Shown one piece after another: positions 10,449-60,459 of a stretch of DNA of 64,000 bases (within the stretch, counting starts at the first letter, position 1; each line of letters begins with the position of its first letter). The stretch comes from Prostheceraeus crozeri (Eukaryota; Platyhelminthes; Polycladida; Euryleptidae): the NCBI GenBank assembly GCA_907163375.1, contig CAJQUW010007109.1:62001-126000 (forward strand), written 5' to 3'. Below the pieces are notes generated by a model. The model saw only the letters and a list, made by a program, of their open reading frames with translations. It did not search any database and had not been told where the DNA came from. The translations under genes and the position numbers were made by a program.

Positions 10449-13400
10449 ATGGTAAGTTGAACATTTCTTCACTCATCTCCCTCAAACGTGTGGCTAATAG
10501 CATCTTCCTCAATTTCAGGCATCAACTTCATCACCAACGACCTCCCTTCTCGAGGAAAGTTTAGAGTTGTTGAGTCAAAGTAGGTTGCAACAATACACTG
10601 ACACTTGAACAGAGATGATGGAATGATTTCTCTTTCAGGTGATGTGAGTTCCAGCTCAGGACTCTCGCGACAAGGCAACGAGTGGGAATGTGCCGACTGC
10701 GGACATATGTTTACAAGGAAGCACAGTCTCCTTCGACACATCAAACAACGTGTGTGTCAACGCAAAGCGGCGTCAATCTCCGGAGGTGAAGTTGATTCTG
10801 ACGATGACCTCTCCTTTCCTTGCGATTTTTTCCCTCTTTCTTTTGATAGTCACCTTCAGCGATCTTCGCACAAACTTCAACACACGCATGCAAATGATCA
10901 CTACACCAACGGTACCTCTACCATCTCTCTCATTAATGTTTCACATAATAATTTAGTACGCGACTACTGCATGGAGTCCAATACTCAAATAGTAGATTTT
11001 CCTGAGTGGCTCCTTCAAAATTCTAACATTATCGAAGCGCTCTTCAACAATTTAGACAATTTTAGAATGAAGGCGCTCATCTACCTTAAACTAAAATATA
11101 GTAAGATAGATTTTCAAACGGGTCAAGTGACGGAGAGAATACAGTTTCATGTTCCTTCCTCTTCCGCAACCGAAGTTGTAGACTGCGAGTCTTGGCTAAA
11201 TTTTCACATTCAATGTTTAAAATCAAATGTAGATAAATTCGATCAACGCGACAGCGCTCTCATTTTTGATGGTGTGGACTCAGCCATATTCAAAATTTCC
11301 CTATTAGAAAGTCATGCAGCTCGAGGCACATTTAAACTACCAAAAACGTTGTATACTAAGAAAGCTGTCATCAATGTCGATTGTAAATCACAGTGTTTCA
11401 AATATGCAGTCCTATCCATCCTTCACTATAATGATATCAACGCGAATCGAAATCATACCTATAGCTATAGACAGTGGGAGGATGAACTAGACTTTGAAGG
11501 TTGTGATAGTAACAACATGAAAATCAAAGATGTAGAAACGATCGAAAAACATAATAAGATTAAAATTGTCGTTCACGTGTGGGAGAAGGGGTTGAAGGGT
11601 GCCCGCTATAATTCACGTTCAACTTGTTATGAACGTGTAGTCAACCTGTTATTAGTAAAACAAGATAATAGCGAGGAATGGCACTACTGTGATATTCCCA
11701 AAATCTCTCGCTTCTACACTCACTTGGGGCACTTTAAAAGAGGTGAACATTTTGTATGCGACCGCTGCATCCGCTCCTTTTGGAGTAAAGATAAATTTGA
11801 AACTCACTATGAATGGTGCAAGCGAGGTAAATTACAAATGGAACGCATGCCCAAAGATAAAATATTTTCACATAGGGATAATGGTGACGAATTAAGTCCC
11901 CTGCGTGTCATTTACGCAGACATAGAATGCTACATTGATGATATCATCCACAAGCCAGCAGCCATATCCTGCTATGAAGTATGGCATGACCACTTTAGGA
12001 ATAGACAAAACAGAATGCATACTTGGCAAGGTGAAGATTGCATTTCAAAATTTCTAGAATTTCTCGATAAAGCTGCTAAATTTCAACAATCATATGATTC
12101 CCAATTGCAGCGTAAGTCACTACATATGTCAGATGAAGACAAACAAAAATTTGAAAGTTGCACATCGTGCCCTAAATGTCATAAAACGTTTGATGACGAT
12201 AAAATTAAGAAAGTGCGTGATCATGATCACATCACTGGTAAATTTAGAAACGCACTCTGCTCCAAATGTAACTTTTCACTTAGGTTGAGACGTCGTGTAC
12301 TACCCGTCATTTTTCATAACTTTAAGGGCTATGACAGTCATATGCTCATAAAAGGAGGTTTGAGCCAGATGAAATCGTGGCAGTTTAATGTAATAGCGCA
12401 AACGAGAGAAAAATTCATGGCAATGACAGCAAAAGTACCAGTAGATAAAACTAAAGAAAATAAGACAGTCTTCTTCGAAATAAAATTTTTATATTCATTC
12501 CAATTCATGTCAGCGTCACTAGCTTCTCTCGTTCGTAATCTCAAGTTTCTTCCCCATAGTCAAACTTTGAAGAAACACTATCCAAACTTAACGGATGAAA
12601 TAATCACTCGCAAAGGAGTCTTTCCCTATGCGTATTTTAGCTCAATGTCTAAACTAAATGAAACAACCCTTCTTTCCATTGACAAATTCCAAAACGATTT
12701 GACGGGTCAAGATTGTCCAGTAGAGGACTATGAACATGCTCAAGAGGCATGGTTAAAATTTGATTGTAAAACGTTTGGCGATTATATGATCGCTTACTTA
12801 GAATTAGATGTCATTTTGCTGGCTGATGTCTTTCAGGAATTTCGACGAGTGGCATTAGAAGAAGACAAATTAGATCCTGTCCACTTTGTCAGTCTACCAG
12901 CCATGTCCTTTAAATCAGCCTTTAAAATAACTGGTGAGACCATTCATCTCTTACAAGACCCCGAGATGTATAACATATTTGAGCGCGGTGGTCTCACATT
13001 TGTAAATAAACATCATATAAAATCTAAAACAGTAGATGATGGTCATATCCACCTAAAGTACTATGACCAAAATAATTTATATGGCAGTTCACTGTCTAAA
13101 CCACTACCTCATTCCGAGTTTAGTTGGTTAAATCAAGATGAGCTTGAGTATTACTCCAACCCTTCAAACATACTGAAGATTCCAGATGAAGGTGATTGGG
13201 GATATTATTTTGAAGTGGATTTCATTTATCCAAATAGTATTAAAAATAAAACTGCTGATTTCCCACTCGCACCTGAATATGGTGAAGTGACTGAAGATAT
13301 GTTTTCACCATTCATGTCACAATTTCATAATAACTTAACAGAGTGTGGACAGCCAAGGTACAAACCATGCCGCAAACTTTTACTCACCCAATATGATAAG

Positions 13401-14414
13401 AAAAATTATCTCGTACACTTCTGCATACTAAAATTCTATTTAGAAATGGGCATGCTTCTAAAGTCAGTTCACCGCATTATCAAATTTAGACAGAAAGCCT
13501 TCCTCAAACCCTACATAGATAGTAACAGTCAAAAACGTGCACTCGCCCAAAATAATTTTGAAAAGGATTTTTATAAATATAAGAATAACAGTCTTTTCGG
13601 AAAGACCATGGAGGATGTTAGAAAACGTATGAACTACAAACTAGTCGTTGATGAACAAAAATATCACAAATTGACCTCATCACCTCTTTTCATTGATAGA
13701 GACATAATCGATGAGGATCTTGTAGGCGTTAAAATGATAAAATCAGAAGTTGAGTTGTGCAAACCCATCTATATTGGGCAAGCCGTTTTAGATTATTCCA
13801 AGCTTGAAATGTATCAACTCTTCTACAAAATATTAAAACCATGCCCTCTCGTAAAAGAGGTTCGCTTGCTGGGTGGTGATACAGATAGTTTCTTTTTAGG
13901 AATTACCACTCAAAAAGATTTAAATTTTAATGAAGTAGGCAAGTCATTAGAAAAATATTTCGACACATCTAACTACAATCCCACTCATCCACTCTATTCC
14001 ATGCAGAATAAAGCCAAACTTGGTTGTTTTAAGGATGAAACAGCAGGAAAGGAAATAGATGAAATGATTCTCCTCCGTCCTAAAATGTATTCCATAAAAT
14101 TAAAAGAATGTGCAGATAGTATTAAGCGTGCTAAAGGTATATCAAAATCCATTGTTCACAAAATGAAACATCGGTCCTATAAGAAGGCCTATAAAAATAA
14201 AACTATAACGTTTGTCAATATGACAATCTTAAAATCTCAAGTTCATACTGTGAAAACGCACACGTTCAAGAAACGAGCGCTTTCAACATGGGAGGATAAG
14301 AGGTGTTGGATAGGACATAACACATCTCTTCCACATGGACATCCTGACACAAACATACCTCCACCCAAAAGAATAAAACTCACACTACCACATTCAGGAG
14401 ATGTATTGACATAA
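10449..14414 (+). CDS. polB: protein-primed DNA polymerase B of element 1, with two mini-introns
   Basis: Replicates the element genome. The long frame has no upstream ATG before 10623. A three-exon model solves this: exon 1 ends with the ATG (10449-10451), intron 10452-10518 (GTAAGT...TTTCAG), exon 10519-10579, intron 10580-10638 (GTAGGT...TTTCAG), then exon to 14414, giving about 1279 aa in one frame. C2H2-type fingers lie near the N-terminus and again near residue 385. Exonuclease motifs: ADIEC, HNFKGYDSH, LELDVILLADVF. A CPKC...DHDH...CSKCN endonuclease-VII-like zinc site lies between exo I and II. Polymerase motifs: YYDQNNLYG (A), NNSLFGKTMEDV (B), GGDTDSFF (C). All catalytic motifs are present and I see no disabling mutation. 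Confidence 0.9.
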
Positions 14415-25682: not shown

Positions 25683-26453
25683 CCCTGTGGGAACGAATCT
25701 TGCGAAAAACTGGCGAATGTCAGCTGCAGAATATCATGCTAAAGTTCAGTCATATTTGCGGGATATTCGCTGGCGAAGTTCGCCGGCGACAATTCGCGCT
25801 CTGCTACCTTTTACTTTTGACTCTCTCTCTTATTTTCTTTAGTAATCCGCCTCTACAGCCGAGGCTCTATTGTCTCCCTCACCTCCTCACTATCCGCCAC
25901 ATATGGCTAATCTATCTAAGAAATAAGTGCAGACTATCATTCTTTGATAATGATAAGAATATAGAGAATCCGCTTATATCAATTTTCATAACATCTCTTG
26001 ACATTCAATAATTTACAACAATGACAAATATTTGAATAATATCATAGTATTTACTGCGACATTTATGGAAGATAAATACTCTTTTTAGTTTAAGCCTTCG
26101 TGAATTAAAAAAGATCCCTTTTTATCACATCAGACTGAGTATAAAATATATTTTCATGTGAAGGTAATATACGAACATTACTACTTACCACTAATTAGTT
26201 GCTACAATATCCACGATTTCGCCGGTTGGCGAAAAATCAGCTCGCATTAGTAAACAAATATCTACCAACTAATTATAGCAACTTTTTCGCCACCTGTCGT
26301 TTTTTAATTTTACACATGTTTTTGGATAAATGATGACCATTTTCACATGCGGAGATAGTTTTTACTCGAAAATGAACCTTTAAAAAAATTATCCACAAAA
26401 TCGCTACCTCGCCAGATAATCTGTTGATATTAGCAAGATGCGTTCCCACAGGG
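25683..26453. mobile_element. 771-bp inverted-repeat DNA transposon inside gypsy
   Basis: Ends are inverted: CCCTGTGGGAACGAATCTTG at 25683 and the reverse complement of CCCTGTGGGAACGCATCTTG ending at 26453. It is flanked by a 2-bp duplication TT (25681-25682 and 26454-26455). Joining the flanks with one TT restores an uninterrupted gypsy frame, confirming both ends. It encodes nothing, so it is non-autonomous. It contains further hairpin-prone GGCGAA/TTCGCC words. Superfamily not assigned. Confidence 0.85.
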
Positions 26454-26455
26454 TT

Positions 26456-28624
26456 GGAGTCATATCGCCGGTCACGGAGCCAACTGAATGGTGTTCTGGA
26501 CTCGTATGCGTACCGAAAGCCAATAAGAAAGTAAGAATTTGTGTTGATTTGACGAATTTGAACAGATCAGTAGAACGTGAAATTCACCCGATGGCTTCCG
26601 TGGATGCCAGCTTAGCAAAACTGGGGAGAAGTACTGTATTTAGCAAACTTGATGCCAACAGTGGATTCTGGCAAATACCTCTTGATGAGGAATCGAAGAA
26701 TTTAACTACATTTTTGACACCGTTCGGAAGGTATAGATATAACCGCCTGCCATTCGGTATTTCGTCGGCGCCAGAAATCTTTCAACGTACCATGTCAGGG
26801 ATCTTAGAAGGTCTCGAGGGAGTTATTTGTCACATGGACGATATCTTGGTCCACGGTGCCAATCGCAACGAACACGATTCGCGACTACATCAAGTTTTAA
26901 GTAGATTGCAAGAATCCGGTCTAACGCTGAAGTGTGACAAATGTGAATTTTCCAAAAATTCCATAAAGTTTTTAGGAAATATCATCGACCAGCAAGGAAT
27001 TAGTATTGACCCACAAAAGACTGATGCCATTCGAAATTTTCCCCCGCCCAGAAATATAAAGGAACTTCAGAGATTCATGGGAATGGTAAACCATCTTGGA
27101 AAATTTATCCCTCGACTGTCTCAGATCAATGAACCACTGCGCCAGCTATTGAAAGACGATAATGAATGGACATGGAGCTTCGGCCAAGAGCGACCATTCG
27201 AACAGATAAAAAGAATGTTGACTTCGTCGGAAACATTGGCCTCTTATGACCCACGTAGAGAAACTATTATCTCAGCGGAGGCCTCATCAACTGGAATCGG
27301 AGCCGTTCTTCTACAGTTACACGATGGAGCAAGACGACCGGTATGTTTTGCCTCGAGATCCTTAACAGACACGGAACAGAGGTATGCAGTTATTGAAAAA
27401 GAAGCCCTGGCGTCCTGTTGGGCATGTGAAAGATTTAGTGAATACGTCCTTGGTTTGAACTTCCATCTGGAAACCGATCACAAACCGCTCGTTCCTTTAC
27501 TCAGTACTACAGATTTATCGAAAATTCCCGCTAGAATACAGAGATTCCGACTTAGGATGATGAGGTATTCGCCATATGTCAGATATGTACCAGGAAGCTT
27601 TCAATACACTGCTGATGCGTTATCACGAGTGTCACAAGAAAACCCGACAGTGTCAGAAATTGAATTTATCTCGGAAATTCAGCACTTTGCAAGGCACACA
27701 GTTTCGAAACTTCCGGCATCACCTCAGAAACTATCCGAAATTATAACAGCACAGCACAACGACGAGGACATCCAGGAAATCAAGACATACGTTACAGGCG
27801 GTTGGCCGAAGTATAGACCAAGAGAACCCCACTTGAATCAGCTCTGGGATGATCGATCACATTTTACAATTATCGACAATATCCTTCTCTACAATGAACG
27901 TATTGTTATTCCAAAATGTCTAAGGGATGATGTACTCTCAAGACTGCATGATGGCCATTTAGGGATATCTAAATGTCGTGCCAAAGCAAAAGACGCTGTT
28001 TGGTGGCCTAAAATTTCAAAACATATTGCGAACTTTGTTTCAAATTGCGCTGTTTGTTTGAAAAACAGGTCTGAAAGGAAGGAGCCTCTAATTCCTACTG
28101 AATTTCCTTCCAATGCATGGCAGAAAGTTGGATCCGACATTTTTGAGCACGCTAGCCGAACTTATGCTCTTGTTGTTGATTACTATTCCCGTTGGATCGA
28201 AATCAGAGAAATGAAAGGTTATACGACAGAGCATCTAGTCAACTGTTTGAAAAGCATTTTTGCCTGCCAAGGAATACCAGAAACTGTTATTTCTGATAAT
28301 GGGCCTCAATACAATTCTGAAGAATTCAGGAAATTCGCTCAGATATACTCCTTCAAGCATGAAACCAGTTCCCCAAGGTTCCCTCAAGCTAACGGTGAAG
28401 CAGAAAGAGCAGTTAGAACAGTAAAGAACTTACTGAGAAAAAATCCAGACCCTTACATGGCATTATTGGCATACCGAACTGCTCCTCTGATCAACGGCAA
28501 AGCTCCCCGTCAATTATTGATGAATAGAATGCTTCAAACCAGAATACCTGTGATACCTTCCAAGCTGAAACCGGAAATTGAAATGAGGATAATTTACGCA
28601 AGAAGGAAGAATCCTACCGCATGA
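26456..28624 (+). CDS. gypsy Pol: reverse transcriptase, RNase H, integrase
   Basis: Continues the gag-pro frame after the transposon. Reverse transcriptase with LDANSGFWQIPL and the catalytic box HMDDIL (YMDD type); RNase H with SAEASSTGIGAVL; integrase zinc domain (HDGHLGISKC...CAVC) and DDE core (GSDIF, ISDNGPQYNS, ANGEAERAVR). It ends at 28622-28624 where the frame is lost; the continuation starts in the neighbouring frame at 28621. Confidence 0.9.
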   Translation, partial: GVISPVTEPTEWCSGLVCVPKANKKVRICVDLTNLNRSVEREIHPMASVDASLAKLGRSTVFSKLDANSGFWQIPLDEESKNLTTFLTPFGRYRYNRLPFGISSAPEIFQRTMSGILEGLEGVICHMDDILVHGANRNEHDSRLHQVLSRLQESGLTLKCDKCEFSKNSIKFLGNIIDQQGISIDPQKTDAIRNFPPPRNIKELQRFMGMVNHLGKFIPRLSQINEPLRQLLKDDNEWTWSFGQERPFEQIKRMLTSSETLASYDPRRETIISAEASSTGIGAVLLQLHDGARRPVCFASRSLTDTEQRYAVIEKEALASCWACERFSEYVLGLNFHLETDHKPLVPLLSTTDLSKIPARIQRFRLRMMRYSPYVRYVPGSFQYTADALSRVSQENPTVSEIEFISEIQHFARHTVSKLPASPQKLSEIITAQHNDEDIQEIKTYVTGGWPKYRPREPHLNQLWDDRSHFTIIDNILLYNERIVIPKCLRDDVLSRLHDGHLGISKCRAKAKDAVWWPKISKHIANFVSNCAVCLKNRSERKEPLIPTEFPSNAWQKVGSDIFEHASRTYALVVDYYSRWIEIREMKGYTTEHLVNCLKSIFACQGIPETVISDNGPQYNSEEFRKFAQIYSFKHETSSPRFPQANGEAERAVRTVKNLLRKNPDPYMALLAYRTAPLINGKAPRQLLMNRMLQTRIPVIPSKLKPEIEMRIIYARRKNPTA

Positions 28625-38505: not shown

Positions 38506-39073
38506 AGTAATGGGCAAAAGACCGTTCCAGGACACCATAAAATTCAAAAAAATGGTATCTTTAAAAACGACATAAATTCATGAATTTAGACCCTTTTCAG
38601 GTTTTTCAGACCTAAATTCATGAATTTAGTCGTTTTTAAAGATACCGATTTTTCAAAAAATGGCATTTTTAAAAACGACATAAATTCATGAATTTTGGTC
38701 ATTTTTCAGGTTATGAAGACCTAAATTCATAAATTTGGGCGTTTTTAAAAATACCCAATTTTCAAATTTTTCAAAATCTCAAATTTGAGAATTACAATTT
38801 TCACCCGCCCTTAAAATCATGACCGTTCCAGGACACCGTAAAATCAGAAAAGTTAAGAATCTCAAAATTTGAGAATTACAATTTTCACCGCTAAAATCAT
38901 GACCGTTCCAGGACACCGTAAAATCAGAAAAGAAAAGTTAAGAATCTCAAAATTTGTGATTGTGACATTTTACTTTGAAAATTATGACCGTTCCAGGACA
39001 CCGAAAATCATAAAAGTTAGTATTTTTAAAAATGACTAAATTCATGAGTTTAGACGTTTTTCAGGTTTTTAAA
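38506..39073. repeat. Polinton 2 left terminal inverted repeat
   Basis: Pairs with 59991-60459. It holds internal repeats: four copies of GACCGTTCCAGGACACC (38520, 38821, 38901, 38986) and nested AAATTCATGAATTT palindromes next to AAAAACGAC. The left copy has one extra internal unit, so it is longer than the right. Confidence 0.9.
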
Positions 39074-40482: not shown

Positions 40483-43132
40483 TCAAAGACGACGAATGTG
40501 GCGTTCATTCTCCCATTTTGAGGTTTTAATAATGAATGTGTTGCTGCGTCTTGTGGTTTTCACTGTAGGCATAGTGATCCTTCCGGAAGAAGAGACAGGA
40601 GGCACCAGAGGGTTCAAAATGTGTGATGGGGACTTGGCATGTGAAAGGAGTTTCAAAGAAGCGCACTTTCTTCTACTAGAGATAGGTTCGAAGTGATGAC
40701 TTGAGCACTCTTTGTAATCCCTGCCGCACAAGATTCGATGAAAACGATTTTGAATTCTTTCCAGCTTAAGTGAATTTTCTGTCGACAGTCCAGCTAGTAA
40801 TGGTGAGCAATACTCCAAAATCGATCGCACAATTGCGATGAAAGCGTTGATTAATGATGCCTCACAAACGTCATTTTGTTTAAGCACACGGATGATAAAT
40901 AATCTTCTTGCTGCGGTTCTTACAGTAGCATTGATGTGGGTATTCCAATTATTGTTCGGGTCAAAAATCACACCAAGGATTTTCAGCTCTTCCACCAGGG
41001 GAATGTTCGACAGACGTATAGGAGTAAAGCTTGGAGAACGTGCAATTGCCAACATTTTGCACTTATTCATATTGAGAGGTAAGTCAACGCTCACAGACCA
41101 TTCCAATAGCGAATGATGGACTTCTTCCACGTGAGCATTTGCTGAATCTATAAAGATTGGAAGGCAGGTAGTAAAGTCATCAGCGTATTTCACAATTTTA
41201 CACGGTTTGCCGGATATATCAAAGCTGCCAGTCACAATGGAGAACAGGTAAGGACCAAGTATTGAGCCTTGAGGGACACCTGAACTCACTCTGACGTAGT
41301 CACTTTTCACCATTCCGATGCGCACACATTGCCATCGTCCCGTTTAGTAACTGCTAATCCACTGAATGAAATACGAAGGTAAGTTGCACTCGATTAGTCT
41401 GTTAATGATTATATTGAATTTTAATTTATCAAATGCCTTGATGAAGTCGTAGGCAACGATTTGGATGCCAGATACACCATGATCGTCCAAACATTTGGTA
41501 TAATAATCATGAAGAGCTATCGTGGCGCATGCTGTAGACGACGCGGGTCGGAATCCATATTGATCTCTTCCGTACCCAAGAAGAAGTTTATCTCTCACGT
41601 CATGCAAAATTAGGCGCTCTAATACTTTCAATGGCACAGAAATCACAGTAATTTGGCGAAGTTCATCCACTGATGCCTTTGAGGATTTGGGAACAGGTGT
41701 TGTAATCGAACACTTCCACCGTGTAGGGACAATACCACTTCTCAAAGATAAATTATAAATTTCAGCCAGAGGTTCCGCTATGAAAATTGCAGCCGATTTG
41801 TATAGTATTGCTGGAATATCTGGAGAAGACTTTTTAGTTTTAATTTGACACAAAGCTTCGTAAACATCATGAGTTTCCAATTGTGGTAAGTACTGAGGTA
41901 GAAAAGACAACTCATAATTGTCACTCTCCTGAAAATTATTAGCAAAATTACAGTTAATGACGTTCACAGCGGCTTCAAGAGATCCTATTTGCTCGCAGAT
42001 GGCGTCAATTACATTTTGTCTATTTTTGCCCGATACACAATTGATCGCATGCCATACATTGTTGCCCCTTATCCTTTTATTCCAATTGCGCTTTGCCTTC
42101 TCGATTTCATACTTTACTTTTTCCCTAAAATGGGCATATTTCGAATAATCTCTTTCGCGGTACGCCTTCCACCGACTATTAATCAACTGCTTTATAACAG
42201 GAGTCATCCAAGGCTTGTCGTTCTTCGTGAAGGTGACGTCATTCACAGGAATACAGGATTCGAAGGCCGAATCAAGGTTATCGTGAAAGTAATGGCATTT
42301 GCTCTCTATATCGTAACGATTGTCATATACAGGACTCCAGTCCATATTCATTAGACACTGCACAAATTGATCTACATTTGACTCACGGAGATCGTAAACT
42401 GGCTTTTTGATATACAAACTTTCGTTTTTGATAGGCACAAATGGGGTTGCCAGCATGCACATATGAGGAATTTTCGAGGTGTCAATAGGTAGCTCAGTTT
42501 TTACTGTGTACATATTCACAATTCCCTCAGACATCAAAATATAGTCCAGCTGAGAGTTTCCGTAGGTAGGTCCGACATATGTATTGACCAGATTAAGGTT
42601 AGAGCAGACCTCGGCAGTAGGAAATCTATTCAGGTCACCGCATAAGACTATGTCATGATTTGGATAGTTCGCTAAAATATCATCCATGGTGTCAATTAGA
42701 AAGTTTGTTATCACTGACTTACATGATACAGACATAACAGGAGGAATGTAGATGCCAATCATGCATAAATCTGGAGATCCCTTAATAGCCACAGTCTCAA
42801 TACCAGTTGGTACATTTCTCAACTGTATAACATGAGCTTGCAAATGATGTTTTGCCCAAATGGCAACTCCACCACCCATTCGTCCTTCTCGATCATTTCG
42901 AAAAACCCTGAAGCCAGCTATTGAAAAAAATCATCACTGTGTAAGTATGAGAACCACGTCTCAGTAGCGCAGTAGCGACAAAAATATCAACGTTCATTCT
43001 GGTTAAAATTGATGAAATAATTTCGATTTTCCGCACTGCTGATCGTGTATTTGCTAACAAAATTTTTGGCTTTTCTTTTTGATTTCTTGACTTGCTTCTA
43101 TCACGCATATTACTGTTAAAATACACATTCAA
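40483..43132 (-). pseudogene. LINE ORF2: endonuclease and reverse transcriptase, two breaks
   Basis: Three open parts in order: 42893-43132 (start of the APE-type endonuclease), 41344-42879 (rest of endonuclease with LCGDLNRFP and LDYILMSEG, then reverse transcriptase to IQWISSY) and 40483-41325 (SSGVPQGSILGPYLF, KYADDFTTC catalytic box, then the C-terminus). The first two are in different frames (shift near 42885). The last two are in the same frame separated by a single TAA at 41344-41346. ORF2 opens 4 bp inside the end of ORF1. Confidence 0.85.
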
Positions 43133-44876: not shown

Positions 44877-45368
44877 ATGAGCAACATAAATGAGTTTTTG
44901 AAATTATATGGAACACAAACAACAACGAATTTCGACCTAAAAAAAATCGCTAATCCATTAGGAATAAAGAATTTTCATGTTCCAATCAGAGACGAATTAC
45001 AATTCCTAAAAAATAAGCCAACAGGAACCTTCAGTTCCCGGAACAAAGTTCCATCAATAACTATAAATTTCATAACAAATCTTCATACGTCAGATGAAAA
45101 AGGTGTACATTGGTCAGCAGGACAAAGAAATATAAACTGTTCTAATTATTATTTTGACCGCCCGGAGGCTGAGAACTATTGGTTCGACTCATACGGACTT
45201 CCACCTACGAATGAAGTAAGAGAAATACTTGACAATGGAATTTATAATACATTTCAAATTCAAAAGCCAGGAACTACATATTGCGGTCAATTATGTCTTT
45301 ATGTTTTATTTAAATTACAGGAAGGAGTACCATTTCTAGATATTATGTTAGAATTGAACGAACCGTAG
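44877..45368 (+). CDS. adenain-like cysteine protease of Polinton 2
   Basis: 163 aa, intact. Catalytic His in EKGVHWSAG, Asp in NYWFDSYGLP, Cys in TTYCGQLCLYVLF. It processes virion proteins in Polintons. A double-hairpin element (45024-45052) is embedded in frame, encoding about residues 50-59. The stop codon itself lies in another such element (45360-45385), so the C-terminus may have been shortened by that insertion. Confidence 0.9.
   Translation: MSNINEFLKLYGTQTTTNFDLKKIANPLGIKNFHVPIRDELQFLKNKPTGTFSSRNKVPSITINFITNLHTSDEKGVHWSAGQRNINCSNYYFDRPEAENYWFDSYGLPPTNEVREILDNGIYNTFQIQKPGTTYCGQLCLYVLFKLQEGVPFLDIMLELNEP
45024..45052. repeat. double-hairpin element in the protease gene
   Basis: GGAAC-cttca-GTTCC, one base, GGAAC-aaa-GTTCC. 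Both stems are perfect 5 bp. Confidence 0.7.
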
Positions 45369-45385
45369 GTTCTATGGCTACGTCT
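45360..45385. repeat. double-hairpin element at the protease stop
   Basis: GAACC-gta-GGTTC, TA, then TGGC-tac-GTCT (second stem imperfect). It supplies the TAG stop of the protease frame. Confidence 0.65.
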
Positions 45386-45402
45386 AATGAAAGTAATGAT
45401 AA

Positions 45403-46730
45403 TTAAAAATCAGTTCGTTGTAATTCATTTTGATAAAATCGGCCTCTGATATTTTCATCATCTAAATCTTTGATTTCGTAAGTAATCGGATAAGTTTGAT
45501 TTATTTTGCAAACTTCAAATATTTCTTTAGTCCAATAGCCAACAAAGCCTTTTTCAAATTTATTCTTATACTTAAATATTCTAACTCTATCTCCAATTTT
45601 AAATTTCGGCTTAAGTTTCTGCAAATTCGGATTACTCTCATTCAAATTATTATTCTCGAATATTTTTTTTCTTATCAAATCAGGGTCGTCAGAAGCATTC
45701 TTTGGAGTTTCTTCAATACCAGAATGAACTTTATTATTGTACTCTTCTACAATTCCTGGTAATATCTTCAACCATTTCTGATTTCTTTGCTCAGTAAATT
45801 TCTTGAATAATTTATTTTTTAACGTCCGATTGAATCTTTCTATCACTACGGCCTTCCTGCATTTTCAGTTGAATAAACAGTTTCAAATAGTGGCTGAACG
45901 TTTCGGTTATAAACTTCCGACCCTTTATCAACAAACAATTTTTTTGGCTTTCTCTTACTTTCTTTAAAGATTTCTTCAAACGCATATTTAACTGATAGAC
46001 CACTTTTATTTTTTAAAGGCTTTACCCAAGCGTATCGTGTATATAAATCTATAACGGTCAATGCGTATTTGTAGTCCCTTTCATTCGGCATATGAATAAG
46101 ATCAGCACTCCAAATATCATCTTTATTAAATACTTTTACTTTCAATAAATATTTCGGCTTTCTGTATTCCCTATGAATTTCAGACGCGTAGGTTCGAGAG
46201 TTGCTCTCAGACAGCTTAGCTGTCGTTTCATTTAAACCCTGGCCGAATAATATTTTAGCTTGTAAAGCTTTCTTAACAAACATTCTTTCAATTTTTTCTC
46301 TAAATGTAGGATTTTGAATATTATCTAATTCTTGTATCATCTTCTTATCAGCTGCATGTCGAGAACTTAGATCATGATTTCGATAAGCTAAATCATGTCT
46401 ATAAGCTGCGGCATCTACTCTATTTATTGGTTCTTCACCTGGTTTCGGATTATTATTCTCATCTAGTCTTGTATCTAATCGAGTTCCTGGACCGGTATAT
46501 GAATGACCAGGAAGATGTTTTTCTTTCGAATATTTACTCCAAATAAATCCAGGAAAGTTTTCTAATGTTTTTTGTATGTCACCACCGTAGGTATTAGCCA
46601 AACTTTGTTTGTCGTCGTTACCTTCATAAATTTTACAATTTGAGTTTTTATGTACTTTTAAGAGATAATTCAATAAATCTAAATTAGAAATTTTTAATTT
46701 AATTAAATTTTCGGAATTTTTAGAATTCAT
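45403..46730 (-). pseudogene. phospholipase A2-integrase fusion of Polinton 2, frameshifted
   Basis: One frame (45846-46730, 294 aa) holds two domains. Residues about 70-160 match the parvovirus VP1-type phospholipase A2: Ca-binding YTGPGT, then DAAAYRHDLAYRNH with the catalytic HD pair. Residues about 195-290 are a retroviral-type integrase core with Asp in WSADLIHM and Asp in LFVDKGSEV. The third catalytic residue, Glu in VIERFNRT, lies in the next frame (45403-45846, 147 aa), which continues to the C-terminal SH3-like region (GDRVRIFKYK). The frame is lost by one base near 45850-45870. Domain fusion itself is unaffected, being inside one open frame. A double hairpin sits in the linker. Confidence 0.8.
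46196..46224. repeat. double-hairpin element between PLA2 and integrase
   Basis: GAGAG-ttg-CTCTC, one base, GACAGC-tta-GCTGTC. Stems are perfect (5 and 6 bp) with triloops. It lies in the linker between the two domains and keeps the frame. Confidence 0.75.
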
Positions 46731-46769: not shown

Positions 46770-47252
46770 TTACCTTATCATACTAGGACTTAGATATATT
46801 CCAGAACCATCTTTAGTTTCTTTAATTTCAATAAAATCATCAACATTGTGGAGAATATTTTTAAGAACTCGTTTTCCTTCATCAACTAATTTTAATTTAC
46901 TAATAAAATTATCTACTATTCCGTCACCCCTAGCAACTTTCTCTAACTCTCTATTATGACGTTTTTGTTCTTCTAATGCTGCCTTCTCTGATTTATTTTT
47001 ATTTACTGCTTGGACAACACCAGCTGTCCCGCCTGCAACACTTCCTGCAGCTGCTATGCCACCTATTATTAGTGGAATTAATGGGAGAATTCCACCATTC
47101 TTTTCTTCTTGTAATTGAATATTCTCTATCATTGGTTTACTTATGTAATACTTTTTTTTATTAATCGTAATAGTTTTAGGGGTATTTTTGTCAACAATAT
47201 TACGTAATTTTAATTCAACAGTTTTATTATTATTACTTTTTGCTTGCGACAT
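46770..47252 (-). CDS. Gly-rich hydrophobic minor-capsid-like protein
   Basis: 160 aa, intact. Basic N-terminus, then NGGILPLIPLIIGG and a long Gly/Ala segment (about residues 53-82), a coiled-coil region and an acidic end. The GG-hydrophobic motif recalls adenain-cleaved pX/pVI-like proteins of adintoviruses. Confidence 0.55.
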   Translation of the reverse strand: MSQAKSNNNKTVELKLRNIVDKNTPKTITINKKKYYISKPMIENIQLQEEKNGGILPLIPLIIGGIAAAGSVAGGTAGVVQAVNKNKSEKAALEEQKRHNRELEKVARGDGIVDNFISKLKLVDEGKRVLKNILHNVDDFIEIKETKDGSGIYLSPSMIR

Positions 47253-48946: not shown

Positions 48947-49477
48947 TTAGAATTTTGCTAGACCAGCTCCGCTACAGCTTTGCTGGTTAAACCGAAGGTT
49001 GCTGCTCACGCCATTTCCTCTTATTTCTTCAATTGAACGTTTTATGGCTACGCCTGATTTCTTCTTATGTTTACTATCAGACGGAGCTCCGCTCCTCAAG
49101 GTTTCCCCAACAGCTATGTTAGCAATTTTATTTTTTGTTTCCTCTGAAAGTTTTTTTAAATTTTTTAGTTCTTCAGAATCATTCCTAAGTTTACGAATAG
49201 CTTCTAGTTGTTTTAATTCGTTTTGAGACTTGACAGCATTTGATATTGCACTAGCTGTACTACCTATAGCAGCTGCTCCTTTTGCAGCAGATGTAATCAA
49301 ATCTTTATTATTTTTAATTAAGTTAACGATACTTCCAATACCAGAGAAGATGCCAGCTCCTTCCGTGTGAACTGTTTCTCTATTATCATAATGATAAACA
49401 GGATTCATACCTGGTTCATGAGCAATTCTTTGATTTGAAGCAAATTGTTTAAGATTGTGTTTATAAATTATAGGCAT
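48947..49477 (-). CDS. amphipathic minor-capsid-like protein
   Basis: 176 aa. GAGIFSGIGSIVNLIKNNKDL and an Ala-rich stretch (about residues 40-85) are followed by a coiled coil and a basic KHKKKSG segment. It resembles protein-VI-like minor capsid proteins. Its last residues are encoded by a double-hairpin element (48975-49000), and a further hairpin (49083-49095) is inside it. Confidence 0.5.
   Translation of the reverse strand: MPIIYKHNLKQFASNQRIAHEPGMNPVYHYDNRETVHTEGAGIFSGIGSIVNLIKNNKDLITSAAKGAAAIGSTASAISNAVKSQNELKQLEAIRKLRNDSEELKNLKKLSEETKNKIANIAVGETLRSGAPSDSKHKKKSGVAIKRSIEEIRGNGVSSNLRFNQQSCSGAGLAKF
48975..49000. repeat. double-hairpin element at the end of the minor-capsid gene
   Basis: CAGC-ttt-GCTG, short spacer, AACC-gaa-GGTT. 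A single AGC-tcc-GCT hairpin precedes it, and GGAGC-tcc-GCTCC occurs at 49083-49095 in the same gene. Confidence 0.65.
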
Positions 49478-50354: not shown

Positions 50355-51716
50355 ATGGATAAAGCAAATTTAAAAAAATTATATTCGTCCGCATCATCCT
50401 GTTCTTCTTATTCGACGAGATCAACGGGATTTGAAAATGAATGTTTTGATAATAATAATAATAATTCATGTATAGATGTTAATATTTTATTTCAATTACA
50501 AGCCGAAATATTTAGAGAACAGACTAAAGGTTTACCTTCTATAGAAACTAATTATTGTTTATTTCCAGGAGATCCATTTATTAAATTTATGGATATAGTA
50601 AGTAAATATAATGATGTAGCTTATGTGGAATTAAATAAAGAAAATATGGTTATTATTGGTCATAATAATGTTTATGGTTTTATTAGAGCAGTATTACCAA
50701 TTAGTAATACTGATTGGATAGAAACTAAAATTATTAATTATATCAATATTAAAGAATTAGTTAAAAAATTAAAATCTTTTTCGAAAGAAAAAATTAGATT
50801 ATTTGTTGATGAACAAAATCAATATAACATTCACATAGAGAGTAAAAAACATAATGAAGAATTATTATGTCAAGTTTATTATAGAGACACAATTTATAAA
50901 CAAGAAACATTAGAAATGCCGCAAAAATATGATGATGATACATATATAGGATTGTATTCCAATTTAAATATTAATTTATTAAAATCTTACATAAATGGCT
51001 TAACTCAACAAGAAAAAATTTATATGTGGACAACACCTTATACTATTAACAATGTCCATAGTCATAATCATAATAAACGAACCGAAGGTTCTAGGGCTTT
51101 GCCCGATCTTAAAGAATCTTATAATAATAATAATGATGATTCTGAAACATCTGAAAATGGTGTAAATGGTAAAAAAGATTACAAAAATATTAGTAATTAT
51201 AAAAATTTAAGTGAAGAAAAATTTATATCTCATACTGATGTACATGATATTAATACTACATATAATCAAAATTTATCTAAATTTCATTTTCTTACAATTG
51301 AAAATAATAATGATGGTATAGTTGAAGATACTGTTAGACAACTATGTGTCGGGTCTACAAAATTTAAATTAGGATTTACATCTAATCAATTTAAAATTTT
51401 ATCATCTTTAATAAAAACTAAAAGTTATTCAGATTATGGTGGTGTTATTAAATTTTCCAAAAGAGATCAAAGACCAATATTTTTCTCTATTATATTATTA
51501 TCAGATAAAAGATGTAATTTAGAATTAGATATTCCAATAAGAGAATGGTATCCTATCAGGGAATGGCATCCTATACCAAAAAGTGTAATTTATTATGTTG
51601 AAGAAACAATTGATGATGATGATGAAGAATCAATTGATGATGATGATGAAGAATCAATAGTTAGTGAAAATAAATTTAAATTATCTTTTGATAAAACGTT
51701 ATATGATAAAACTTAA
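50355..51716 (+). CDS. unknown 453-aa protein, possibly clamp-like
   Basis: Intact. Residues 1-35 are Ser/Asn-rich. Residues about 70-170 (FMDIVSKYNDVAYVELN..., KELVKKLKSFS) have the alternating pattern of sliding-clamp (PCNA-like) folds, but no signature makes this secure. A double-hairpin element adds RTEGSRALP at about residue 242. The C-terminus has duplicated REWYP/REWHP and a doubled IDDDDEES acidic repeat. It is upstream of the polymerase on the same strand. Confidence 0.4.
   Translation: MDKANLKKLYSSASSCSSYSTRSTGFENECFDNNNNNSCIDVNILFQLQAEIFREQTKGLPSIETNYCLFPGDPFIKFMDIVSKYNDVAYVELNKENMVIIGHNNVYGFIRAVLPISNTDWIETKIINYINIKELVKKLKSFSKEKIRLFVDEQNQYNIHIESKKHNEELLCQVYYRDTIYKQETLEMPQKYDDDTYIGLYSNLNINLLKSYINGLTQQEKIYMWTTPYTINNVHSHNHNKRTEGSRALPDLKESYNNNNDDSETSENGVNGKKDYKNISNYKNLSEEKFISHTDVHDINTTYNQNLSKFHFLTIENNNDGIVEDTVRQLCVGSTKFKLGFTSNQFKILSSLIKTKSYSDYGGVIKFSKRDQRPIFFSIILLSDKRCNLELDIPIREWYPIREWHPIPKSVIYYVEETIDDDDEESIDDDDEESIVSENKFKLSFDKTLYDKT
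51079..51104. repeat. double-hairpin element, in frame
   Basis: GAACC-gaa-GGTTC, TA, GGGC-ttt-GCCC. It is translated as RTEGSRALP inside the 453-aa protein. Confidence 0.85.
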
Positions 51717-51775
51717 TATGATAAAACTTAATATGATAAAACTTAATATGATAAAACGTAATATGATAAAGAAAA
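51714..51775. repeat. TATGATAAAACTTAA tandem repeats
   Basis: About four to five 15-bp copies after the stop codon, with a last copy reading ACGTAA. Likely 3'-end or promoter spacer. Confidence 0.7.
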
Positions 51776-52212
51776 TAAAATAACTTAGGAACGTGAAATA
51801 TATAATAATATAAAATAACTCTCAAGACCTTGTTATTAGAATGTTTATATCTAAAATTAAAACACAATTTTTTCCTTAAAAAATAAAAAAATGGAAAATA
51901 CCAAGTTTTATTGTAACTTATGTAAAAAAAAGTTGCAAACAAAAAGAAGTTATCAATCTCATTTAAATAGTAAATTGCATTTACAAAATGTAGATCGAGT
52001 TGATGAAGGAAATATATTAAAATTAAATAATTATATAAACTATCTAGAAACATTGCCTACTGATATAAAAGTTAAAAAAATGTTTGATGATTATTCACAT
52101 TCGGAATATAAAAAAGTTTTTAATAGTGAAGATGAACATGAACCAGATGGAAGATATTTATTTAGCGATACTGATGAATTTGATGAAGCTGAACGAACCG
52201 ATGAAGCGGAAC

Positions 52213-52237
52213 GAACCGAAGGTTCTAGGGCTTCGCC
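52213..52237. repeat. double-hairpin element, in frame
   Basis: GAACC-gaa-GGTTC, TA, GGGC-ttc-GCC. Translated RTEGSRASP in the polymerase N-terminal part. A partial copy of its left flank (CTGAACGAACCGATGAAG) stands just before. Confidence 0.85.
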
Positions 52238-52275
52238 ATTAACAGATATAAAATATTTATTTAATCAGTCTGTAC

Positions 52276-52301
52276 GAACCGAAGGTTCCAGGGCTTCGCC
52301 C
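52276..52301. repeat. double-hairpin element, in frame
   Basis: GAACC-gaa-GGTTC, CA, GGGC-ttc-GCCC, again translated RTEGSRASP. Confidence 0.85.
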
Positions 52302-53832
52302 GTTGAACATAATGAAACCGATGAAACTTTTTATAATGTATTAACAAACTTTTATAATATATTTAAGAAATCTTTCAAATGTTATATGAATGTAGAAGTA
52401 CTTTATACAAAAAATGGACCTGATGGAATTCCTGAAGAAATAATACAAGGACATTTTACAAATTCACAAGAAATTCATAATGTAAATGATATACAACCCA
52501 TATTTGAACAAATGATACTTAAATTAGAAAATTGTATAATTGAAGCCCAGTTACGTGAATCTGGTTGGAGATTTGTTAAAATACTATCTAAGAAAATAGT
52601 AATTGATAAATATAGAAATAATACTGGTGGTAGTTATGTTCCTTTGCCTTTCAGTTCACCACAAATAATCAACATAAAAAATGAAGATGATTAATGTCTT
52701 CTGTGGAGTATTATAGCACATTTACATCCTGCAGAATATCATAAAGAAAGACTAAGCCATTACAATAAAGAAGAATACATAAATGAATTTGATCTCTCTG
52801 ATGACTTACATGAATTTCCATATGATTATAATAGGTTAAAAAAGTTTCATAAAAAGAATAAAAATTTAATAGAAGTAAATGTTTTTGAATTAAATGTGAA
52901 TTATGTTTCTAATGGTAAAATTACTCCACTTTACTCAGATTCAAAAAAATTTTATTTGAATAATAAAAATTTATGTCAATCAGAAATAGTATATAATGAT
53001 AGGGGAAATTACATGCATCATAATATTTTTTACCAAGGAAATATAATATGTACTGAAAAATTTGAAATTATAAAAACACTATCACCAATAATGATTAATC
53101 ATAATAATTATAAAGGACGTAATTATAATTATGATTATGATACCGATTATTTATCTTTATCTTTAGAACATCAACAAAAATTACAAAATTTAAATGAAAT
53201 TTTACAAAAATGTAAAACAGATTATCAACAACAAACAAAAATATTAGTACAAGAATATGGCCATAAATATCAAAATAAGATAGAAACGATTCAAAAATTA
53301 AATGAAGACAATAAAGAATTAAATAATGAAGAAAATGAAACCAATCAAAAAATAAATGAATCTTTAAGAAAATGTCTACAACAATATAAAGAACAATATG
53401 ATAAAGAATATAGTTATCAGTTACAAATATTAAATCAAAATTTTCATCGAAGTACATTTAATCTTACAAAAGAAATTGATGAAACACATGAAATATATCA
53501 AGATAAATTTGAAAAACTAGAACAGACAAAACAGCCAGCACAAGCGAATATATTATATTATCAGGGTCATTTTATATTGTGTAAAGATGTTTCTATATTT
53601 ACAAAAACTTCAGATAATGCTAATTTTCCCTGTGTCCAATGTATGACGAGCTTTAGAACTAAAGAAGAAATGAATAGACATTTGGAGAATTGCCAACAAA
53701 ATGAAGCAGTCAGAAACACATTTCCAAAAGATGATTATTTAGAATACAATAAATGGTATTTTAAAAATAAAGTACCCTTTACTATTTATTGTGATTTTGA
53801 AGCATATAATGTTAATATGACACAAAAGCACG

Positions 53833-53864
53833 GGACATCGGAGATGTCTTCCAGGGCTTCACCC
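53833..53864. repeat. double-hairpin element, variant stem, in frame
   Basis: GACATC-gga-GATGTC, spacer, GGG-cttca-CCC. The first stem has a different sequence from the other copies but stays perfectly paired; the second half keeps the SSRASP frame. Confidence 0.75.
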
Positions 53865-53881
53865 GATTCTGATAATTGTAC

Positions 53882-53908
53882 GGGCCAAGCCCTAGAACCT
53901 TCGGTTTA
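53882..53908. repeat. double-hairpin element, inverted orientation, in frame
   Basis: GGGC-caa-GCCC, TA, GAACC-ttc-GGTTT: the reverse complement of the common copy, 18 bp from the previous one. Confidence 0.8.
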
Positions 53909-54613
53909 TAAATATGAAAAAAGTGCATCTGAACAAAGTAAAGAAAAATATTTATTTGAACAAAAACCATTATGTTGGGGAATGTACATTCATTCAAATT
54001 ATCCTGAATTATTTGAATCAGAATATTTTCAATACTATGGTGAAGATAGTTCAGAAATGCTTACAAAGAAAGTAGAAGAATTACAATGTCGCTTTTCACA
54101 ATTGCTTGAAACAAATATACCGATGATGCCATTAACAGAAAAAGAAAAATTAAATTTTATTAATGAAACAAAATGTTATTACTGTGGAAAAGAATTTACA
54201 AAAAATTATAAAAATGGCAGAGGTAGATATCTTGACGAAGTAAAAGATCATGATCATCTAAATGGATTATATAGAGGTGCAGCACATAATTCTTGTAATC
54301 TTAATGCTAATAAATTTAAATATAACTTTGTTGCTCTTTATTTCTATAATGGCTCTAAATATGATTTCCATCTAGTAATGAAAGATTTATTTTCATCTGA
54401 AAAATTACAACAACAACAAATAAATGTACTATGTAAAACAGAAGAAGAATATTTTTCAATGCAATTAGGTTGTATTAGAATTTTAGATGCATTTAGATTT
54501 TTTACTCCTTATTCATTAGATGTTATGGGAAAAACTTTGAAATCTGAACAATGTAAAATATTAAATAAATATAATTTAAAACCTTTAAAAGGACTATTTC
54601 CGTATGAGTATAT

Positions 54614-54680
54614 AGCCTGCGGCTCACAGTCGAAGACTGATATAACTGGAGATAAAACCTGTGGTTCACAGGCGAAGACT
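54614..54680. repeat. two related double-hairpin elements, in frame
   Basis: 54614-54638: AGCC-tgc-GGCT, CAC, AGTC-gaa-GACT. 54656-54680: AACC-tgt-GGTT, CAC, AGGC-gaa-GACT (one mismatch). The first stem changes on both sides between copies (GC/GC to AC/GT), so pairing is kept. Both lie in the polymerase between exo II and exo III and encode CGSQSKTD and CGSQAKTD. Confidence 0.75.
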
Positions 54681-56543
54681 GATTTTAATTCTGTGAATAA
54701 AATTATGGAAGAAAAACAACTTCCTCCAATAAATAAATTTAAATCAACATTAAAACAATCACAATTATCTGACGAAGACTATGCAGAAGCTGAAAAAAAT
54801 TGGAGAGAGTTAAATTGTAAAACAATGTATGATTATACAATGAAATATCTACAGATAGATGTATTAATACTAGCTGATCTTTTCGAAAACTTTCGTGATA
54901 TGTGTTTAGAATATTACGGAATTGATCCATGTTATTGTTATTCTACACCAGGTTTAACATGGTTAGCAGGATTAAAACATACAAATGTTAAACTTAAACA
55001 TTATAAAGAAAATACATATGAAAAATTATTATTTTTTGAATCTGGAATTATAGGTGGAGTTTCATCAGTTTTAGGTAATCGTTATGTACAGTGTTACAAT
55101 AAAAAAGTAAATCCTGATGATTATGGAATAATGAAACCTTTATCTCCAGAAGAAAGTGATCAGTTTATAAAATTGTTTAATCAAAATATAGAAGGACTTA
55201 TATCAAATGAAGATAGTCAAGCAGCAGTTGATGAAATCATGAGAGAAAACTATTTGTTATATTATGATTTTAATAGCTTATATTCTTCTTGCATGATACA
55301 AGAATTACCAACAGGTGAGATGGATTGGTGTAATATTCTAGATTATCAAAAAACATATGATGGAAATTATAATCATGGTTATATATATGAAGTTGATTTA
55401 GTATACCCTGATGAAATAAAAGATAAAACAAAATATTTTCCTTTCTGTCCCGAAAACAAAATTCCCAATATAGAAGATTTTTCAGATTATCAAAAATCTA
55501 TAATTCCTAAGAAATACAGACCAACAAAAAAACTTATGTTAACACAAAGTAATAAAGGAAAGTATGTTGTTGAAGGAAGAATACTAGATTGGTATTTAGA
55601 TCATGGAATGATTCTCACAAAAATACATCGAAAACTATTTTATCAAAAATCTAGGTGGTTAAAAAATTATATAGAGTTCAATATTGAAAAACGTAAAATA
55701 GCTAAAAGAAATAAAGATGATTTTGGAAACGTGTTCTTCAAATTAATGAATAATGCATTTTATGGGAAGACTTTAGAAAATGTGCGTAATAGACAAAATA
55801 TTGAAATAGTTTATGATAAAGATAGGTTTCAAAATTTAACAAGGAAACCTACATATAAAAGAACTACTAGATTTAGTGATGAACTATGTGCTGTACATTT
55901 ACGTCGAATTAGCTTAAAACATGATAAGTTTAATTTCATTGGTTTCACTATATTAGAATTAGCTAAACTATTTATGTATAGATTTATATATGATTATTTA
56001 GCACCTGCTTATGGCAAAAACTATAAATTACACTTTACAGATACCGATTCTGTTTTCTTAGAATTAACAATACCGTATAATTCTACACTTGTTAAAGAAA
56101 TAGATAAAATAAAAGATATCATTCATCCTTCTGATTTATGTAAAGTAAAAGATGAATTAGAAGGAAATGAAGATTTCATAACAGAAGCTATATTTTTAAA
56201 ATCTAAATGTTACTGTTATGATACAACTAATAATATTAAAACACATAAAACATTAAAAGGAATATCAAAGGCATCAGTGGCTAATCAAATAACATTTCAA
56301 GATTATAAAAATGCATTATTTAATAATGAAATAAAAACAGCGTGTAATTATAGACTTAATTCAAAGAAACATAAAATGTATTTAAAAGAAGAACATAAAT
56401 TAGCATTAGATCAATTTGATGATAAAAGAAAAATTTTACCTGATGGAATAACTACTTCACCTTTTTAATTTTCTAATTTCTAAGATAGACAAAGTTGATA
56501 TATACATAAAAAAATATTATAACACTATATTTGTATATTTTTA

Positions 56544-59990: not shown

Positions 59991-60459
59991 TTTAAAAACC
60001 TGAAAGATGGATAAAATTCATGAATTTGAAATTCTCAACTTTTGTGATTTTTGGTGTCCTGGAACGGTCATGATTTAAGCGAGAAAATTGTAATTCCCAA
60101 ATTTTGAGATTCTTAACTTTTATGATTTCCGGTGTCCTGGAACGGTCATGATTTTAGCGGTGAAAATTGTAATTCTCAGATTTTGAGATTTTGAAAAATT
60201 TGAAAATTGGGTATTTTTAAAAACGCCCAAATTTATGAATTTAGGTCTTCATAACCTGAAAAATGACCAACATTCATGAATTTATGTCGTTTTTAAAAAT
60301 GCCATTTTTTGAAAAATCGGTATCTTTAAAAACGACTAAATTCATGAATTTAGGTCTGAAAAACCTGAAAAGGGTCTAAATTCATGAATTTATGTCGTTT
60401 TTAAAGATACCATTTTTTTGAATTTTATGGTGTCCTGGAACGGTCTTTTGCCCATTACT
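59991..60459. repeat. Polinton 2 right terminal inverted repeat
   Basis: Reverse complement of the left repeat, ending GCCCATTACT. Contains three GGTGTCCTGGAACGGTC copies (60053, 60131, 60429). Confidence 0.9.

Follow-up and report, generated by a model that had tools for sequence, protein, structure and literature searches.

Double hairpins in the genes of Polinton 2

The window analysed here is a stretch of 64,000 nucleotides from contig CAJQUW010007109.1 (positions 62,001-126,000) of the polyclad flatworm Prostheceraeus crozeri, the source assembly of which comprises 2.05 Gb. It contains a Polinton, named Polinton 2, that is bounded by terminal inverted repeats at about 38.52-39.00 and 60.05-60.45 kb; GACCGTTCCAGGACACC of the left terminal repeat is the mirror of GGTGTCCTGGAACGGTC of the right one. 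Genes identified in Polinton 2 with Pfam are an integrase core with a phospholipase A2 (PLA2)-like domain, a double jelly-roll capsid protein and pPolB. A preliminary description of the window had listed eleven GC-rich segments of two adjacent hairpins in this element and taken them for mobile units. The results below indicate that these double hairpins are, with high probability, very short non-coding mobile elements that insert and spread within Polinton DNA.

The PLA2-like and integrase domains occupy residues 70-151 and 204-281 of the open reading frame (ORF) holding copy D. The ORF 44877-45368 had no Pfam match and is presumably an adenain-type protease, judged from its GVHW and CGQLC residues; it is referred to as protease-like. 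Relatives of pPolB align with 51891-52694, its N-terminal part, and with 53013-56468, its main part, which are separate ORFs in the window. The latter also gave a weak endonuclease VII match (PF02945) of 21.5 bits, under the curated cut-off of 23.6. A PHROGs search with four window ORFs returned nothing informative. The copies, empty target sites and surrounding features are listed here; the spanning loci and the protein relatives (P numbers) are introduced further below.

38520..39002, reverse strand: left terminal inverted repeat region of Polinton 2, with GACCGTTCCAGGACACC at 38520, 38821, 38901 and 38986
38733, 38797, 38881, reverse strand: empty target sites in the left terminal repeat, with filled copies elsewhere
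45024..45052, forward strand: copy A, protease-like ORF; strict double hairpin GGAAC-CTTCA-GTTCC + GGAAC-AAA-GTTCC, coding for GTFSSRNKVP
45159..45186, reverse strand: copy B, inverted and degenerate, protease-like ORF (RPEAENYWFD); exactly 30 bp missing in 1/31 spanning loci
45359..45386, forward strand: copy C, hairpin at 45360-45372; the protease-like ORF terminates within it (LELNEP, stop)
46072..46082, reverse strand: empty target site in the integrase ORF, filled in 3/31 spanning loci
46196..46224, forward strand: copy D, between the PLA2-like and integrase domains; strict double hairpin
48964..49095, no strand assigned: looser hairpin cluster at the end of ORF 48947-49477, with stems at 48975 and 49083
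51078..51105, forward strand: copy F, ORF 50355-51716 (RTEGSRALP); strict double hairpin, same site filled in other copies
52212..52239, forward strand: copy G, ORF 51891-52694, pPolB N-terminal part (RTEGSRASP); exactly 30 bp missing in 9/23 spanning loci
52275..52302, forward strand: copy H, ORF 51891-52694 (RTEGSRASP); exactly 30 bp missing in 8/23 spanning loci
53013..56468, forward strand: main part of pPolB, carrying copies I-L; PF03175, 41.2 bits
53831..53867, forward strand: copy I, longer variant, pPolB (HGTSEMSSRASP); GACATC-GGA-GATGTC + GGGC-TTC-ACCC
53881..53908, reverse strand: copy J, inverted, pPolB (TGQALEPSVY); from the GAACCGAAGGTTC-type pattern scan, residues missing in P0001, P0002 and P0005
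54612..54639, forward strand: copy K, pPolB (ACGSQSKTD); exactly 30 bp missing in 3/9 spanning loci
54654..54681, forward strand: copy L, pPolB (KTCGSQAKTD); exactly 30 bp missing in 5/9 spanning loci
60053..60445, forward strand: right terminal repeat region of Polinton 2, with GGTGTCCTGGAACGGTC at 60053, 60131 and 60429
60086, 60166, 60228, forward strand: empty target sites in the right terminal repeat, filled in 9/37, 15/38 and 20/35 spanning loci

Comparison with shuffled sequence

Strict double hairpins, defined by two perfect stems, occur five times at 44.5-60 kb and never in 60 shuffles of that region. The strict scan found none at 5-20 kb (Polinton 1) and one in the remaining 33.5 kb, where shuffles gave 0.18. 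With relaxed settings the 44.5-60 kb region again yielded five, compared with a mean of 0.01 in shuffles (none of 100 got to five) and 0.05 in a codon-shuffled ORF control; in the GC-richer 1-44.5 kb the same scan gave eight against 4.45, a result near chance since 2/20 shuffles got to eight. The pattern GAACCGAAGGTTC, allowing up to two mismatches, matched the window ten times with 0.83 expected (0/100 shuffles get to ten), although two of the ten matches lie outside Polinton 2 (7788, 8793) and 45360 was scored on both strands. For GGGCTTCGCCC, with at most one mismatch, five matches were found and 0.11 expected. The GC-rich double hairpins inside Polinton 2 are thus real and far above chance in strict, relaxed and pattern scans, and the shuffled AT-rich sequence proposed beforehand as a control yields almost none.

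The preliminary list of eleven copies holds in part. Those at 45024, 46196, 51079, 52276 and 54614 pass the strict test; those at 52213 and 54656 fall one mismatch short of it but are proven insertions. At 45360, 53833 and 53882 the form is degenerate or variant, 48975 belongs to a looser hairpin cluster, and the inverted degenerate copy at 45159-45186 had been missed.

Covariation was assessed on 11 distinct hand-picked 28-mers. Cells changed on both sides numbered 12, with 3.9 after shuffling, and 82.8% of the cells were paired, with 74.6% after shuffling (0/500 shuffles in both cases). Pairs changed on both sides were 5 versus 2.6 (20/500), and further pair types showed no excess (8 versus 7.7, 267/500). 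Pairing was 92.7% in hairpin 1 and 70.5% in hairpin 2, the lower value being due partly to the use of another register by some families.

The unit and its target duplication

The typical unit has 28 nt and consists of a C, a 5-bp hairpin, a 2-nt spacer, a 4-bp hairpin and a G. Its typical gain is 30 bp, made up of the unit and a 2-bp target duplication, mostly AT. The commonest family reads C-GAACC-GAA-GGTTC-TA-GGGC-TTC-GCCC-G, and in the second family, CGGAGCGAAGCTCCTCTGGCTTTAGCCG, a 3-bp stem and a 4-nt loop make up the second hairpin. Other units have one or both stems changed, with pairing mostly kept. The segments had been described as about 25-32 nt long and of one architecture; the common plan is retained, but the typical length is fixed at 28 nt plus 2 bp, and the plan is shared by variants and by two or more sequence families of high copy number.

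Exactly 30 nt was the length of 116/196 GC-rich indel events of 18-70 nt and of 9/141 AT-rich ones, with events counted per alignment, hence not independent, and the hairpin not checked in each. The same 28-mers, letter for letter, were found at unrelated sites. The second family is flanked by AT..AT in 32/32 counted instances (those with sufficient flank), at sites in the terminal repeat, in a pPolB linker, near 44.6 kb and at the MCP gene end. In the first family, 42/70 instances have equal flanking dinucleotides, against a chance fraction of 0.114; the terminal-repeat site supplies 31 of these 42, and by site 6/9 hold at least one copy with an equal flanking pair. The integrase site is flanked by AC..AC in L018 and by AT..AT in L056, the site of copy H by TT..TT in L043 and L045, and the place corresponding to copy I in L038 holds a plain 28-mer between AT..AT. 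At copy B (45159-45186) the direct repeat is GAC.

Units of the GACATC type are longer, with 36-39 bp including the duplication, and across copies they stand in place of GAACC-type units at one and the same site (55336, 59975 and the place of copy I), which suggests that one hairpin was exchanged between units. The two types at a common site are seen in the window at 53831-53867 and in L023, L101 and L107. A still different longer form, GGGCTTCGCGCTTCGCCC, has a 7-nt expansion of the second hairpin and occurs at more than one site (L003, L004, L019, L020, L046, L049 and L063-L065). Tandem or nested double hairpins form inserts of 59-63 nt between genes or at gene ends (46770-46777, 49521; L080, L085, L103, L102; L116).

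Filled and empty sites among Polinton copies

First 97 and later 107 loci were aligned to the window Polinton, and 20 sites were scored, with an insertion of 24-70 nt at the site counted as filled; sites B, 49081, G, H, K and L were scored as empty by a deletion of 24-70 nt. All sites were scored by indel length, and the hairpin itself was read in a subset of sequences. Loci L003-L070 were chosen by hairpin, L101-L110 came from Polintons holding the hairpin, and L072-L100 were chosen by protease similarity. Because of the choice by hairpin, the fractions below are biased upwards and are not population frequencies. The two terminal repeats being duplicates, sites in one are not independent of those in the other, and a single locus can contribute at both ends. 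Filled over spanning loci were as follows.

Left terminal repeat: 38733, 20/35; 38797, 14/38; 38881, 9/26
Copy B, 30/31; integrase 46077, 3/31; 46176, 10/31; 49081, 7/9
pPolB N-terminal ORF: 52136, 13/23; G, 14/23; H, 15/23
53315, 1/10; K, 6/9; L, 4/9; 54983, 2/10; 55336, 4/10; 56236, 2/3
59975, 9/35; 60086, 9/37; 60166, 15/38; 60228, 20/35

Of the 20 sites, those in the left terminal repeat are mirror images of those in the right one. At 49081, beside 48975, a 24-bp piece is missing in 2/9 loci. Exact junctions of the integrase site were filled at 272 and empty at 2420 places genome-wide (2,692 junctions in all). No empty DNA site was found among the aligned loci for the copies at 45360, 46196, 48975, 51079 and 53882. 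The comparison of genes with and without the element, proposed in the preliminary description, thus reveals insertion at the DNA level in Polintons of the same genome and supports the mobile-element interpretation.

A tree of 22 pPolB N-termini, calculated without columns 52170-52320 and with a gap of at least 20 nt counted as empty, requires at least 5, 7 and 5 changes at three sites. Copy H is empty in 10/22 rows of this tree with the 20-nt limit, versus 8/23 with the 24-nt limit. The window and L045, which are 98% identical in the tree, differ at copy G. The inner branches are weak, so some of the changes may represent recombination or precise loss.

Protein relatives with and without the residues

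In pPolB, the relatives P0001, P0002 and P0005 offer nothing corresponding to the residues of copies I and J, and P0001 and P0002 nothing corresponding to those of copies K and L; P0005 stops before K and L and lacks copies G and H. Compared with P0001, copies K and L are inserts of about 10 residues each in PYEYI[..]TGD[..]F. The protease-like ORF was compared with nine close relatives, P0177-P0185. The residues of copy A are present in P0177 and P0179 only (not in P0178 and P0180-P0185), those of copy B in P0177 and P0178 only (not in P0179-P0185), and the C-terminus formed by copy C is common to P0180 only.

These comparisons bear on whether the insertions are old. In that case the elements would have been fixed in a Polinton ancestor, and the differences among copies would be precise losses and recombination between Polintons. 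The many similar Polinton copies, with sites in mosaic patterns as recombination would yield, fit this explanation. Recombination accounts for mosaics but not for new sites, however, and identical 28-mers with 2-bp duplications stand at unrelated sites. The relatives, moreover, are empty at I, J, K and L (P0001/P0002) and at G and H (P0005), and most close protease relatives are empty at A and B. An ancestral origin is therefore considered improbable.

That the residues might be conserved parts of the proteins, which the preliminary description had named as a finding that would speak against mobility, is ruled out by the pPolB (P0001, P0002, P0005) and protease relatives without them. The wider proposal, that Polinton genes conserve the hairpins for a coding or regulatory role, would suit the nine coding sites that share orientation and frame (RTEGSRASP type, see below), as expected of a useful peptide. 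It is contradicted in general by the absence of the residues from close relatives and from other copies in the same genome, as well as by sites in the terminal repeats, and is barely credible, though the peptide could have a role in one gene.

The N-terminal SPRTFGL of P0178 is a seven-residue identity to a reverse-strand frame of copy J. The peptides EPSV (P0208) and TEGS (P0196) are located in or at segments missing from relatives, so, judged from these peptides, such units may occur in other Polintons. Within each of the pairs P0192/P0199, P0196/P0198, P0201/P0202 and P0208/P0211, similar Polinton proteases that stem from other sources, the two proteins are distinguished by short in-frame inserts close to the two loops where the window has copies A and B. 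A 4-mer signature test on insertions of relatives gave weak signals (p 0.034 for protease and 0.041 for pPolB), and the pPolB hits resemble ordinary sequence. Testing back-translated peptides for hairpin potential had no power, since the positives of the window itself failed. IMG/VR scans with the hairpin pattern, two pPolB queries, MCP and protease gave no relatives. Two exact pattern matches were found in a Treponema metagenome-assembled genome (L001, L002), in repeats that look intergenic; by estimate, chance alone yields about two matches to such a 19-base pattern in 257 Gb. The Treponema repeats carry several GAACC-NNN-GGTTC hairpins and are probably a convergent palindrome family.

Copy number and location of the sampled copies

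About eleven copies had been noted in one Polinton; genome-wide there are thousands. The 14-mer CGAACCGAAGGTTC occurs at 7508 places (reversed control, 4), the full main-family double hairpin with perfect stems at 5656 and the exact 28-mer of the second family at 2366 (reversed-pattern control, 0 for each). Polintons themselves are hugely expanded in this genome; a first look gave 10,955 candidates for the protease-like ORF, of which 150 were scored.

Among the main-family instances sampled (L003-L070), 88/88 had Polinton sequence on both sides, a few entering the count twice through the overlaps of L005/L006 and L008/L009. Among 12 additional short loci, Polinton homology was found on at least one side in 12/12 and on both in 7; the one-sided loci are L113, L115, L116, L118 and L121. 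These counts address the possibility of a repeat family of the whole host genome, seen in Polintons merely by chance. The sample leaves some room for it, with 88 instances in 68 loci checked of the 7508 14-mer places, all from the first contigs. Nevertheless, the both-sided homology in 88/88, its presence on at least one side in all 12 short loci, and the single strict match, which is chance level, in the 48.5 kb of the window beyond 44.5-60 kb, to which the left part of Polinton 2 belongs, make a genome-wide family highly improbable.

Reading frame and orientation

In four ORFs (integrase, 48947-49477, the N-terminal part of pPolB and its main part), hairpin inserts of 28-40 nt are open and have lengths divisible by 3, except for one aligned as 28 nt. 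Since the 28-nt unit and the 2-bp duplication add up to 30 bp, the reading frame survives, and the longer GACATC-type units likewise stay in frame in pPolB. A single orientation and phase (RTEGSRASP type) was found at F, G, H, I, 46077, 52136, 54983, 55336 and 56236. Copies K and L share this register; B, C, J and 53315 do not. The simplest reading of the shared orientation and phase is selection for a harmless frame, and insertion bias may be an alternative source.

Explanation and possible mechanism

Several observations weigh against the interpretation as mobile elements. No mobilising enzyme was identified. The filled fractions are inflated, since L003-L070 and L101-L110 come from hairpin-bearing Polintons, and only 3/18 inner branches of the pPolB N-terminal tree are well supported. 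Equal flanking dinucleotides are missing in 28/70 first-family instances, 20/28 of them at site F; at the three sites where no copy has an equal pair (F, G and the one in L025) the flanks may have mutated. Unit forms giving 24, 33, 36, 37 and 39 bp also exist, at site 46176 a 5-bp repeat accompanies 33 bp, and at least one 30-nt GC-rich event (L106 at 53927) has no hairpin and resembles a local repeat. Finally, three inserts at or up to 3 codons from the stops of two ORFs (46770-46777, 47473) carry in-frame stops.

The mechanism by which the elements would move, in trans and with a 2-nt staggered cut, is given about even chances. As the unit is too small for a gene, it would be mobilised in trans, and a nuclease or transposase would cut with a 2-nt stagger. 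Movement would probably take place during protein-primed replication, when Polinton DNA is single-stranded and hairpins are able to fold. Selection would then purge insertions breaking a frame or a conserved domain, and Polinton amplification would multiply every inserted copy. A candidate for the mobilising enzyme is the endonuclease VII-like part of pPolB, phage relatives of which cut at 2 nt from a branch. More tentatively, the 28-nt hairpin parasite might be a Polinton-only miniature satellite with a Polinton-encoded mover, such as that part of pPolB, its 28+2 length having been selected as ten codons that keep dense viral genes readable; this proposal is possible but rather doubtful.

Host end joining could do without a dedicated enzyme if a folded single-stranded donor fragment were captured at breaks. 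The tiny unit and its variable hairpins, including the expanded form GGGCTTCGCGCTTCGCCC, would agree with such capture, as would the Pfam scan of the Polinton ORFs, in which no transposase-like domain except the integrase was found. On the other hand, the recurring 28-nt unit with a 2-bp duplication favouring AT speaks for a defined cutting enzyme, and 88/88 sampled instances lie in Polintons. End joining is accordingly regarded as unlikely.

Relation to known systems

Double-hairpin elements of fungal mitochondrial DNA were reportedly described by Paquin et al. 2000. The Polinton units share with mitochondrial double-hairpin elements the two adjacent hairpins with a short spacer and the presence or absence at homologous sites; they differ in residence, as 88/88 sampled instances lie in Polinton DNA, the host mitochondrial DNA not having been searched. 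Yeast mitochondrial GC clusters of the GC42 family have 32-42 nt, are intergenic at 82/89 positions, and show a short direct repeat, AG or ACT, at insertion. The units described here, in contrast, reside in nuclear Polinton DNA and typically have 28 nt with many in-frame copies in genes. Their usual 2-bp repeat is AT, AC, TA or TT, not AG; compared by eye, the GC42 sequences of the published table look unrelated to them. Miniature inverted-repeat transposable elements (MITEs) also come to mind, as target duplication is usual, but the unit ends share C and G only, and a partner was sought in Polinton ORFs only. In bacterial REPIN/RAYT systems, paired hairpins are moved in trans by a single-strand transposase; they are not known to show a 2-bp duplication. 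The Pfam scan of Polinton ORFs detected neither a RAYT-like nor a Y1 transposase domain, the rest of the genome not having been searched. The one open-access paper listed with both polinton and double hairpin (PMC5799277) is said to concern giant-virus RNA hairpins. Among the matches listed, the titles and abstract starts of the open-access literature (subscription papers not covered) describe no such units for Polintons or Mavericks.

Sponge repetitive hairpin-forming elements have adjacent hairpins, and some copies lie in protein genes without a frameshift, as given in PMC2800124; the same paper has the flanks of Allomyces double hairpins as being without duplications. These fungal and sponge elements are mitochondrial, and the Polinton units usually have a 2-bp duplication. 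According to PMC7813641, small inverted repeats of placozoan mitochondrial DNA are GC-rich hairpins, one family with 3-nt loops, that spread into coding genes too; they are mitochondrial and are described there as single palindromes. Rickettsia palindromic elements are found in frame in many genes (PMC10969869, a review), and in-frame insertion into unrelated genes applies here as well (protease-like ORF, integrase, pPolB), but those elements measure about 150 bp and reside in a bacterial chromosome, compared with the 28-nt typical unit. Volvox organelle palindromes are short and selfish, with nuclear copies thought to be inert and transferred; the same account (PMC2670323) places them in organelle DNA, mainly intergenic or intronic, with a mean of about 50 nt in one set. 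The closest known kinds are mitochondrial double-hairpin elements, yeast GC clusters and Rickettsia palindromic elements.

Mitochondrial mobile hairpins have long been known, and two papers on them leave the mechanism of movement open. In the present genome, thousands of sharply bounded copies with a typical length and a 2-bp duplication can be compared at filled and empty sites, and the lineage that carries them has a compact gene set; the mobilising enzyme thereby becomes a tractable question. The insertions also represent a route for viral proteins to acquire ten-residue inserts.

Other features of the window

In the Polinton 1 region, a 1263-aa ORF at 10623-14414 contains an endonuclease VII domain scoring 29.1 bits, above the curated cut-off, and coexists with zero strict double hairpins in 5-20 kb. 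A 26-nt stretch repeated in that region (7834, 8310, 8839) fits the relaxed double-hairpin scan. Between the terminal repeats of Polinton 2 sit reverse-transcriptase ORFs at 40483-42879, probably belonging to a non-LTR element. At 26438-28624 lies a gypsy polymerase that points to an invertebrate animal as the probable host; its best named relatives, in the best 120 of 3578 relatives, are from starfish, sea urchin and coral, with 58-61% identity.

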